A stretch of DNA of 64,000 nt from Methanoregula sp. (GTDB lineage: Archaea > Halobacteriota > Methanomicrobia > Methanomicrobiales > Methanospirillaceae). Below are positions 20,107 to 42,453 of this stretch, one piece after another. The stretch covers positions 1,116,001 through 1,180,000 of the forward strand of contig CP112999.1 in the NCBI GenBank assembly GCA_026625165.1. The letters are read 5' to 3'. Under the pieces are notes generated by a model, which did no database searches, was not told where the DNA came from, and saw only the letters and a list, made by a program, of their open reading frames with translations. The position numbers and the translations under genes were made by a program. Every line of letters starts with the position of its first letter. Within the stretch, counting starts at the first letter, position 1.

Positions 20107-21519
20107 ATGCGCCCGTCATATCCTGGCAGGATCCTGCTTCGCTGGTGCGATCACTGCCATGTCCCGGTTCTTGAAAAACAATGTTATTGCGAAAAGATGA
20201 CACGAGCCGTGCCTGTAACACCACCTGGTGACGCACGTCCTGCGTTTGAAGCTGATATCCATCTAATCAATACCATTTACACTGATCATTTCGGGGCCCC
20301 TCTTGTTCCATCAGGCCATATTGTTCTTTTGAATAAAGTGCCGGATAAGGACCGGATGGAAGAAATCATTATCGGCGGCGGAATTGCAGGATCGATCCGT
20401 TACATCCCCAACGAACACCGGTGGGAGCCGATTCCCCGACCTGAGGCTGGTCTTCTTCTCATCCCAAAAAAACGTTTTGTTATAGTAGATGACGGGGCAG
20501 TAATGCCAATCCGTGACATGGGGGCAAGCGTCCTTGCACCAGGGCTTGTCACTATTGATGATGCAGTGGAATGTGGGGATGAAGTACTCATACTCGATAA
20601 ACACAAAACCTGTATTGGGGCAGGAAGAGCCCGGGCCGATTCAGAATCGGCACGAACGATGAAACATGGCGTCATAATCAGGACCCGGAAAAATATTCTC
20701 TCGATAATTATTCCCGGAACCGCAACATGGGAAGATGCCGTCAGGGCAAATACAGCCGTTCTGGAGCGGGCCGAATCGGCAACAGTCGGATTTGTTCAGG
20801 ATGTCGCTAGATCCACCGGTTTGCACAAGAATGTGTCATATTCGGGGGGAAAGGACAGCCTGGCCACATTCCTTGTTGTCACAAAAGCACTCGGGAAGAC
20901 CCCGCTCCTTTTTGCCGATACCGGGATGGAGTTTCCGGAAACCTATGCGAATATCGATACAATTTCACAGCGTTACGATGTTGATGTAGTGAGAACGGAT
21001 GGGCAGACCAAATTCTGGGAGATATTCAGCCATCGGGGTCCCCCTGCGGTCAATGCCCGGTGGTGCTGTAAAACCTGCAAACTTGATCCCATCCAGCACC
21101 TTATCCGTGAAAAGTGGGGAGAGTGCCTTTCATTTATCGGTCAGCGCAAATATGAGTCCATGCAACGAGCCCGGAGCAAACGCATCTGGAAAAATCCCAA
21201 TGTCCCGGCACAGACCTGTGCTGCACCCATTCAAAACTGGACCGCGCTTCATGTGTGGCTTTACCTGATGCGCGAACATGCACCTCACAATATTCTATAT
21301 GAACGCGGGTTGGACAGGATCGGTTGTTTCATGTGCCCGTCCAGCGATATGGCATTGATCCGGATGATTGAATCAAAATACCCTTCCTTATGGAGCAGTT
21401 GGCAGGAGCGCCTATGCCAGTGGCAGGAATCCCAGGGGCTTCAAAAGGATTGGGTTTTTGAAGGGAGATGGCGATTACAAGGAGGGAATCCAGTACTTGA
21501 AGAAGATAGTGATTGTTGA
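20107..21519 (+). CDS. PUA-domain/PAPS reductase-like adenylyl-transfer protein with zinc ribbon
   Basis: 470 residues in three parts. Residues 13-28 hold a zinc ribbon (WCDHCHVPVLEKQCYC). About 110-210 is a PUA-type RNA-binding domain (KKRFVIVDDGAVMPI ... VLAPGLVTIDDAVECGDEVLI ... GAGRARADSE). About 220-460 is a PP-loop ATPase of the PAPS reductase family (NVSYSGGKDSLA), with cysteines WCCKTCK and GCFMCPSS that could hold an Fe-S cluster. The PUA domain argues for an RNA substrate, such as tRNA thiolation, rather than sulfate reduction; this is inference. It overlaps hisH by 23 bp. Confidence 0.8.
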   Translation: MRPSYPGRILLRWCDHCHVPVLEKQCYCEKMTRAVPVTPPGDARPAFEADIHLINTIYTDHFGAPLVPSGHIVLLNKVPDKDRMEEIIIGGGIAGSIRYIPNEHRWEPIPRPEAGLLLIPKKRFVIVDDGAVMPIRDMGASVLAPGLVTIDDAVECGDEVLILDKHKTCIGAGRARADSESARTMKHGVIIRTRKNILSIIIPGTATWEDAVRANTAVLERAESATVGFVQDVARSTGLHKNVSYSGGKDSLATFLVVTKALGKTPLLFADTGMEFPETYANIDTISQRYDVDVVRTDGQTKFWEIFSHRGPPAVNARWCCKTCKLDPIQHLIREKWGECLSFIGQRKYESMQRARSKRIWKNPNVPAQTCAAPIQNWTALHVWLYLMREHAPHNILYERGLDRIGCFMCPSSDMALIRMIESKYPSLWSSWQERLCQWQESQGLQKDWVFEGRWRLQGGNPVLEEDSDC

Positions 21520-40608: not shown

Positions 40609-41877
40609 ATGATGACAGGTCGGACTACACTCGTCCTCTCTAATGTCACATTGCCGGATGGAAGGGTCGCAGACATTTCCTCTGGCGGGGGATACGTCAC
40701 CCATATCGGTTCGGCGCAATCGTGCGATCGAATTATTGATTGCACAGGTCTTCTGGCACTCCCGGGTGCAATCGACATGCATGTCCATATGCGCGGGGGC
40801 AAGCAGTCTGCAAAAGAGGACTGGCAGACCGGCAGCCAGAGTGCCCTTGCGGGAGGTGTGACGGTTGTTGTTGATCAACCAAATACCGTCCCACCGGTTA
40901 CCTCCCCCATGGCACTACAGGACCGGGTCCAAGATGCAAAGGAACATTCTCTCTGCCATTTTGGAATTAACAGCGGGGTAAATGCCAAAACCTCTCTTGA
41001 AATGATGTGGCAGGCAGGAGCGCTCGCGTTCGGGGAGATCTTTTTTGCTCCATCAAGTTATGGAGAGGCGATTGGAAAAGAAACACTTATACAGGTATTT
41101 GAAAGGATCTCGTCGCTGGGGGCACTTGCAACCATTCATGCCGAAATGATCTCTCCCGTACCGGATCAGGACCTTCGATCTCATGACCGGGCCCGCTCAT
41201 CTGATGGAGAGACCGAGGCGGTCAGAACCGTGAATCAATGCAACAGATCCAGGTGCAGGGTGCATTTCTGCCATCTTTCATCGTCCGCTTCAATTGAAGC
41301 CGCATCAGGTTCAGTGGAAGTGACACCACACCACCTCTTTCTATCACAGGACTCCTTTGATCCCTCAAGTGCATTTGGCAAGGTAAACCCCCCTTTGCGC
41401 ACTGAAAACCAGAGGAGAGATTTATGGAAAAGATGGGAACGCATCGATGTGATCGCTTCCGACCATGCTCCCCATACGGCAGATGAAAAACATACGGCAT
41501 TTCCTGACGCACCTGCGGGCATCCCAGGAGTTGAAACCATGATGCCCCTCCTTGTTGCAAAGGTTATTGAACGGAAAATATCAGTTCTATCGCTGGCCAA
41601 GAAAACATCGTTTACCCCCGCAAATCTTCTCGGTATTCCTAAGGCGGGATTTTCCATTGGCAATCGCGCGGATTATGCCTTATTTCCCAAATCACCGGTA
41701 CGGATTACCATAGATACCCTTCACAGCAAATGCGGATGGACCCCCTATGAAGATCAAATGGCCGTATTCCCAGATACGGTTATCATGGGAGGAGAACCGG
41801 TTTATCACAAGAGGGAATTTCTGGAAGGTTCACCCGCATGGTTCCCGGGAGCCGGTTATCGTTATACAGGACAATAA
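40609..41877 (+). CDS. pyrC: Dihydroorotase
   Basis: 422 residues, type I cyclic amidohydrolase of pyrimidine synthesis (carbamoyl aspartate to dihydroorotate). Metal site: DMHVHMRGG near residue 56, IHAEM, CHLSS, TPHHLFLS and the catalytic Asp in VIASDHAPHT. The position usually holding the carbamylated lysine (GFKxF) reads FGEIFF, so a glutamate may bridge the metals. C-terminal ANLLGIPKAGFSIGNRADYALF is typical. pyrE lies at 47.3 kb and carB at 62-64 kb. Confidence 0.9.
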   Translation: MMTGRTTLVLSNVTLPDGRVADISSGGGYVTHIGSAQSCDRIIDCTGLLALPGAIDMHVHMRGGKQSAKEDWQTGSQSALAGGVTVVVDQPNTVPPVTSPMALQDRVQDAKEHSLCHFGINSGVNAKTSLEMMWQAGALAFGEIFFAPSSYGEAIGKETLIQVFERISSLGALATIHAEMISPVPDQDLRSHDRARSSDGETEAVRTVNQCNRSRCRVHFCHLSSSASIEAASGSVEVTPHHLFLSQDSFDPSSAFGKVNPPLRTENQRRDLWKRWERIDVIASDHAPHTADEKHTAFPDAPAGIPGVETMMPLLVAKVIERKISVLSLAKKTSFTPANLLGIPKAGFSIGNRADYALFPKSPVRITIDTLHSKCGWTPYEDQMAVFPDTVIMGGEPVYHKREFLEGSPAWFPGAGYRYTGQ

Positions 41878-41933
41878 CTCCCTGGAAGATACCACCCCAA
41901 AAACATAAATATTGGAGGCGCACAGGTGAGATG

Positions 41934-42105
41934 GTGCCGAGATAAGCGCTTCCATAGGTCCCCGGGTGATCGATTGGCGGATGCCTGGATGTGATCCATG
42001 GGACAACCCGGTTGCGCGACAGGCACTGCCCGGCAGAGGGTTAATTCATAGGTGATGAACGGCAGCATGCCACAGGTGATCCACGTGTGTTAATGCCGGG
42101 CAACA
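41934..42105 (+). ncRNA. Candidate double-hairpin RNA, H/ACA guide-like
   Basis: A GC-rich block in an otherwise AT-rich 252-bp intergenic region. Hairpin 1 (41934-42026) nests GTGCC/GGCAC, GCGC/GCGC, CCGGGT/ACCCGG and TGGAT-GTG-ATCCA, with ACA at 42019-42021 after the GCGC stem. Hairpin 2 has a perfect 9-bp basal stem, TGCCCGGCA (42027-42035) with TGCCGGGCA (42094-42102), directly followed by ACA (42103-42105), and an inner GGCA-GCA-TGCC hairpin. GTGAT/GATGA elements in both hairpins fit kink-turns. A TATA-like ATAAATATT (41906-41914) is about 25 bp before the first stem. This matches archaeal H/ACA guide layout; targets not identified. Confidence 0.5.
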
Positions 42106-42132
42106 TTCTCTTTCTTATAAAGGTGACCCGTG

Positions 42133-42453
42133 ATGCCATCATGTGCTGACGCGATATCCAATACAAAGAACGGTATTATCATCACAATTGAAGTTACAGC
42201 AGGAAGTAGGTCCAATACTTTTCCAGCCGGATTTAACAGATGGAGAAAAGCTATCGGGTGCCGGGTGACTGCTCCCGCACTGGAGGGAAGAGCAAACCGG
42301 GCAGTTATTGCTGTGATTGCAAAAATGCTGGAGATTCCCGAAAGCACAGTCCATATACAATCTGGCGCCACTTCACCGGTTAAGAAAATTCTCATTGAAG
42401 GGATGAGTAAGCCTCATATTGTTTTATGGCTCGAGTCCCTGCTTGACTCCTGA
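42133..42453 (+). CDS. UPF0235/DUF167 family protein
   Basis: 106 residues from ATG 42133 (a GTG precedes it). The family core is recognisable: IITIEVTAGSRSNTFPAGFNRWRKAIGCRVTAPALEGRANRAVIAVIAKML and IQSGATSPVKKILIEG, with the conserved Gly-Arg-Ala-Asn segment. Small cytosolic alpha/beta protein found across life with unknown biochemical role. Confidence 0.88.
   Translation: MPSCADAISNTKNGIIITIEVTAGSRSNTFPAGFNRWRKAIGCRVTAPALEGRANRAVIAVIAKMLEIPESTVHIQSGATSPVKKILIEGMSKPHIVLWLESLLDS

Follow-up and report, generated by a model that had tools for sequence, protein, structure and literature searches.

The window analysed here, a 64,000-nt stretch of a Methanoregula sp. genome, carries a conserved element between pyrC and a DUF167/YggU (UPF0235) gene, all on the plus strand (Table 1). 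The element is a real RNA gene, a previously uncatalogued member of a known guide RNA family, and occurs in single copy in its own genome (E = 7.8e-41 with our covariance model, R1). A TATA-like box, already mentioned in a preliminary description of the locus, is indeed present: it lies downstream of the pyrC stop (41877), approximately 20–27 nt before the RNA start, and is conserved within the genus. The AT peak obtained by pooling all genomes is partly coding, since the box of other genera overlaps the 3′ end of pyrC; same-genus sequences were therefore relied on. We infer that this box acts as the promoter of the RNA gene, and a pyrimidine-rich stretch immediately after the element may serve as its terminator. 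In 49 of 51 genomes, the element is followed directly by the DUF167 gene in the same orientation, and the gap is often below 30 nt. The element is also kept in a genome where DUF167 sits elsewhere (G029) and in one without a DUF167 match (G047).

Table 1. Features of the RNA gene and its surroundings (window coordinates)
Feature	Position	Strand	Evidence or remark
pyrC, dihydroorotase, upstream neighbour	40609–41877	+	TIGR00857, 286 bits, above cut-off
TATA box ATAAATATT, putative promoter of the RNA gene	41905–41913	+	AT peak in 50 genomes; visible in same-genus sequences L002–L008
Whole conserved element, double-hairpin H/ACA guide RNA	41932–42105 (174 nt)	+	strong DNA match in 51/61 relatives, covariation, covariance model
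Outer stem GUGCC/GGCAC, with hairpin 1 and its ACA inside	41934–41938 / 42022–42026	+	inner four pairs 96%, outermost pair 85% paired, 50 genomes
Hairpin 1; 8-bp lower stem 41946–41953 / 42010–42017	41946–42017	+	7/8 pairs changed on both sides
Hairpin 1 5′ guide AUAGGU, A-loop register	41954–41959	+	pairs with GCCUAU 3′ of U2589
Hairpin 1 5′ GGUC, peptidyl-transferase register	41957–41960	+	pairs with GACC 3′ of U2620
Kink-turn 1: GGUGA 41965–41969 with GUGAUCC 41991–41997; C-stem 41970–41971 / 41988–41989	41965–41997	+	covarying C-stem
Hairpin 1 3′ guide ACAACC, A-loop register	42003–42008	+	pairs with GGUUGU 5′ of U2589
Hairpin 1 3′ AACCCGGU, peptidyl-transferase register	42005–42012	+	pairs with GCUGGGUU 5′ of U2620
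ACA box, hairpin 1	42019–42021	+	A and C invariant, last A nearly so, 50 sequences
Hairpin 2; 9-bp lower stem 42027–42035 / 42094–42102	42027–42102	+	6/9 pairs changed on both sides
Hairpin 2 5′ guide AGAGGGUUA	42035–42043	+	9 contiguous pairs with UGACCCUCU 3′ of U1959
Kink-turn 2: GGUGA 42051–42055 with GUGAUCC 42076–42082; C-stem 42056–42057 / 42073–42074	42051–42082	+	covarying C-stem
Hairpin 2 3′ guide GUUA	42089–42092	+	pairs with UAAC 5′ of U1959
ACA box, hairpin 2; probable RNA 3′ end	42103–42105	+	invariant in 50 sequences
Pyrimidine-rich stretch, possible transcription terminator	42106–42119	+	read from the sequence
DUF167/YggU (UPF0235) gene, downstream neighbour	42130–42453	+	PF02594, E = 3.5e-20

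Both hairpins are built alike: a lower stem is followed by an internal pocket, an upper stem and a kink-turn, which leads into a short C-stem, itself covarying, and on to an apical loop. In hairpin 2, the 9-bp stem followed by ACA is exactly as first described: the pairs are kept at 97.8% over 50 genomes, and the box abuts the stem. In hairpin 1, the GCGC stem (41946–41949 with 42014–42017) followed by GACA is present as proposed, but the basal stem comprises 8 pairs (GCGCNNCC with GGNNGCGC) and not GCGC alone, with the ACA box one nucleotide beyond it. The suggested L7Ae sites proved to be two full kink-turns, not isolated GTGAT/GATGA words. Each sets GG-U-GA opposite NRU-GA-U-CC, and, counted on the 5′ strand, the second G-A pair is reached 10 stacked layers above the pocket. 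The C-stem pairs of kink-turn 1 covary (UA, UG, AU, CG; CG, UG, GC) and are 96% paired in the 50-genome alignment, and a C-stem pair of kink-turn 2 is G-C, A-U or U-A in 21, 17 and 9 of 50 genomes, respectively.

The distance from the pocket-closing pair to the ACA box is 16 nt in hairpin 1 and 14 nt in hairpin 2. The consensus for productive archaeal H/ACA RNAs places the ACA/ANA box 14–16 nt from the pocket-closing pair and gives the GA stem about 10 layers (PMC4652768); as read from their pairing, both hairpins share this published geometry. Their lower stems, of 8 and 9 bp, likewise lie within the 7–9 bp of archaeal box H/ACA guide RNAs.

Conservation and identity of the element

When 61 genomes belonging to the same order were searched at the DNA level, 51 gave a strong match, with E-values between 1e-4 and 1e-128; most of these matches span 41931–42105. 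In the 50-sequence alignment, 93% of cells are paired, a figure biased in favour of the consensus structure because that structure was drawn by eye from a few of the aligned sequences. Double changes are far less affected by this bias: 28 of the 46 base pairs are changed on both sides (shuffle mean, 15.9), and double-changed cells number 185 against a shuffle mean of 47.9, a count reached by 0 of 500 shuffles. Sliding the partners by 1–3 columns lowers pairing to 33–42%. Compensatory changes among relatives are thus abundant, as expected if the hairpins noticed in the preliminary description are genuine, and the alignment columns that do not vary are those that an H/ACA RNA uses for its guides, kink-turns and ACA boxes. 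Folding energy gave no signal on the plus strand (MFE −68.1 kcal/mol; shuffles average −67.1; z = −0.23) or on the minus strand (z = −0.64 against shuffles). The element is clearly set apart from chance by its evolution, not by its folding energy.

One genome of the same order (G038, 98% complete) yielded no copy of the RNA by DNA search or with R1, yet its rRNA target sites are unchanged.

In Rfam 15, no family matches the element at gathering score; the best sub-threshold match, in a search to E ≤ 10, is sR5 (10.4 bits, E = 7.3). The earlier label "uncharacterised" stands only insofar as no Rfam family covers the element. The two-hairpin H/ACA label was right: the element has kink-turns and correctly spaced ACA boxes, its pockets can pair with 23S rRNA on either side of uridines, and it is homologous to H/ACA RNAs published for Archaeoglobus and Haloferax. 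Very probably, 41932–42105 (+) is a double-hairpin archaeal H/ACA guide RNA that represents, in Methanomicrobiales, the ortholog of Haloferax HP1–HP2 and of the two final hairpins in Afu4 and Pf7/Pab40. An H/ACA RNA for functionally central ribosomal sites, common over much of the archaeal phylum, is yet without an Rfam family and so is probably unannotated in many genomes; our 50-sequence alignment yields a ready covariance model.

The constant position upstream of DUF167 would also suit a cis-acting leader of that gene, riboswitch-like or L7Ae-responsive, in place of a free guide RNA, and L7Ae is reported to act on the translation of kink-turn mRNAs (PMC5539422). However, the element persists where DUF167 is absent or elsewhere, and its ACA boxes, its rRNA-matching pockets, its homology to studied guide RNAs of other orders and the nature of its invariant positions all argue against a leader, which we consider very unlikely. 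The probability of a short protein-coding gene is negligible: although a 68-codon minus-strand ORF overlaps the element, there is no Pfam match, the lengths of the element fall in equal shares on the three frames, relatives share no open plus-strand frame, and substitutions track base pairs, so that covariation refutes the coding reading.

Predicted 23S rRNA targets

The guide RNA would most likely direct Cbf5 to convert specific 23S uridines to pseudouridine. Alongside the structure, conservation, complementarity and homology reported here, profile searches of the genome revealed genes for Cbf5 (332.7 bits) and Nop10 (81.7 bits). Transcription, RNP assembly and the modifications themselves we infer as follows. 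L7Ae would bind each kink-turn, and Cbf5, with Nop10 and Gar1, would dock on each hairpin via its ACA box; each pocket would base-pair with 23S rRNA flanking one uridine, where Cbf5 would produce pseudouridine.

Elsewhere in the window, part of a 500-residue open frame (20467–20700, +) matches the C-terminal (PUA-like) portion of the Cbf5 model at 31 bits; this frame is probably another PUA-domain RNA-modification protein.

Target scans used the genome's own 23S and 16S rRNA. Both hairpins are complementary to 23S rRNA around uridines (U1959, U2589 and U2620), in agreement with the H/ACA label first inferred. Hairpin 2 fits helix-69 U1959 (E. coli 1915), located in GGGGGUAAC-UA-UGACCCUC, pairing over 9 bp in the 5′ arm and 4 bp in the 3′ arm. 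Averaged over 50 RNAs, this uridine ranks first of 903, and 0 of 1,000 shuffled arms reach the match. The 5′ arm, the discriminating arm in published H/ACA work, contributes −12.6 kcal/mol; helix 69 was not among the matches listed in a tight two-arm energy scan because the 4-pair 3′ arm has an energy of about 0.

Wherever it was read in the order, the helix-69 rRNA site does not vary; the GUU of the 3′ guide is likewise invariant there, and GUUA occurs in nearly all lineages. Outside the order, the 5′ guide reads GGGUUA, GGGUCA or GGUCA, all of which pair with UGACC(C), or GGGUAA, with one mismatch. U1959 corresponds to the same coordinate as A. fulgidus L1970. Hairpin 2 would select U1959, perhaps also U1961 (E. 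coli 1917), and its complementarity suggests that, like the last hairpin of the Afu4, Pf7/Pab40 and HP1–HP2 family, it guides helix-69 U1915 (E. coli).

Hairpin 1 fits two uridines, U2589 of the A-loop (E. coli 2555) and U2620 of the peptidyl-transferase centre (E. coli 2586), which rank first and second of 903 in the 50-genome average. Each target has a precedent, in different lineages: A. fulgidus Af4.2 is reported for L2601, with Af4.3 for L1970 (PMC4652768), and H. volcanii HP1 and HP2 are candidate guides for Ψ2621 and Ψ1956/1958, equivalent to E. coli 2586 and 1915/1917 (PMC2584109). The hairpin would select A-loop U2589, as in A. fulgidus, and/or peptidyl-transferase U2620, as in haloarchaea. 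At fixed geometry, U2589 is the only one of the 903 uridines to offer 6+6 pairs abutting the closing pair, a match reached by 0 of 1,000 shuffled arm pairs. U2620 offers 4+9 pairs with a 3-nt spacer, a match reached by 7 of 300 shuffled arms; in this register, the GUC/GAC pairs at the foot of the upper stem would have to open, and 2–3 guide nucleotides stay unpaired. Total duplex energy is −15.0 kcal/mol at the peptidyl-transferase site versus −11.3 at the A-loop. Across Methanomicrobiales, A-loop pairing of the guide stands at 11–12 of 12, and its core pairing at the peptidyl-transferase site at 9 of 9.

At slightly less than an even chance, the one pocket of hairpin 1 holds two registers that overlap and would lead to pseudouridine at both E. 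coli 2555 and 2586, with lineages having specialised from this dual state: haloarchaea would have kept only 2586 and one genus (g29), in which 2586 is C, only 2555. The distribution of pairings suggests such a pocket, able to serve two sites, with loss of one in particular lineages. It is quite possible, if rather less probable, that hairpin 1 targets A-loop U2589 only and that its peptidyl-transferase complementarity is accidental, given the uniquely fitting 6+6 arms, the published A. fulgidus target, and the persistence of A-loop pairing in g29 (10/12) where peptidyl-transferase pairing is down to 6–7/9. Against this stand the third C of AACCC, which is needed only for the peptidyl-transferase site and is invariant in 50 genomes, the breaking of the AACCC run in precisely the genus whose peptidyl-transferase uridine is C, and the haloarchaea, which lost A-loop pairing yet keep AACCC, H. 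marismortui being reported with Ψ2621. Targeting of U2620 only, as in haloarchaea, is unlikely: the longer pairing, stronger total energy and complete core pairing in 50 of 50 genomes would fit it, but it requires stem-base opening and a spacer, leaves the conservation of the adjacent ACA and AUA unexplained, is matched more often by shuffled arms, and must be reconciled with the nearly identical guide that serves the A-loop in A. fulgidus.

In genus g29 (G056, G195, G237 and G242; same order), all listed 23S copies carry C (GGGTTCAGACCG) at the position equivalent to E. coli U2586, and all other matches listed for the phylum carry U there. Haloarchaeal families (f13, f17, f21, f23 and f29) show 5–8 of 12 A-loop pairs and 4–8 of 9 peptidyl-transferase core pairs, rough counts from low-scoring alignments, with GAACCC mostly intact. 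How a modification guide changes or shares its targets could be tested directly with hairpin 1, given its overlapping registers and the natural U2586C in one genus. The RNA class and its target sites are already known; only the double complementarity shown by hairpin 1 is unusual.

In family f12 (G066, G084, G093 and G100), the A-loop reads GGGAGUUCACCC in place of GGUUGUUCGCC, so that the near-universal U2552 is A. The accompanying guide change (A74 to U) was rejected as strong support for A-loop targeting; it is weak evidence because it restores one pair only and the f12 guide retains a slightly better match to the ancestral A-loop (10 versus 9 of 12). Separately, the 23S rRNA of G186 (L297) shows no A-loop upstream of the peptidyl-transferase loop, possibly owing to an intron, an insertion or an assembly error.

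Relatives across the phylum and comparison with known systems

Covariance model R1 matches 132 of the 247 genomes of the phylum, at scores from 182 down to 24 bits and with E-values down to 1e-15 outside the order. Haloarchaeal matches are weak and split; on inspection, they represent both hairpins in order, at low scores. Named genomes with the hairpin-1 pattern include Methanoregula, Methanolinea, Methanoculleus, Methanocalculus, Methanospirillum, Methanogenium and others, plus two Archaeoglobi. Among the lineages read, the outer stem GUGCC/GGCAC was seen in this order only and is absent in Archaeoglobi and other orders. At one locus (L081; G037:C1:2913400–2915400), about 200 nt separate hairpins 1 and 2, as in haloarchaea.

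Genome G159 is, we take it, very probably Archaeoglobus fulgidus DSM 4304; in its 23S rRNA, if the helix-69 uridine is numbered 1970, the A-loop uridine becomes exactly 2601. The likeness to Afu4 (Af4.2 and Af4.3) is close, as the G159 hairpins (C1:2119207–2119356) carry the same guides, AUAGGU/GCAACC and GGUCA/GUUA, and the A-loop and helix-69 uridines assigned to the window RNA coincide with the published targets L2601 and L1970, respectively. Afu4 differs in having a third, upstream hairpin for 16S rRNA, of which the window RNA has none, and in lacking the outer stem around hairpin 1.

Pyrococcus Pf7/Pab40, compared with the window RNA through published descriptions, has three hairpins; its stem III targets the equivalent helix-69 uridine, L2016, and homology to haloarchaeal HP1 has been described for its stem II (PMC2584109, PMC4652768).

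Haloferax volcanii HP1–HP2 resembles the window RNA in having two hairpins in the same order, and the haloarchaeal hairpin 2 guides, GAGGGUUA/GUUA, are identical. This Haloferax RNA is known as sR-h45. It differs in the spacer between its two hairpins and in its hairpin 1, which in haloarchaea (UUUAGUC..GCGAACCC) has lost the A-loop pairing found in the window RNA.
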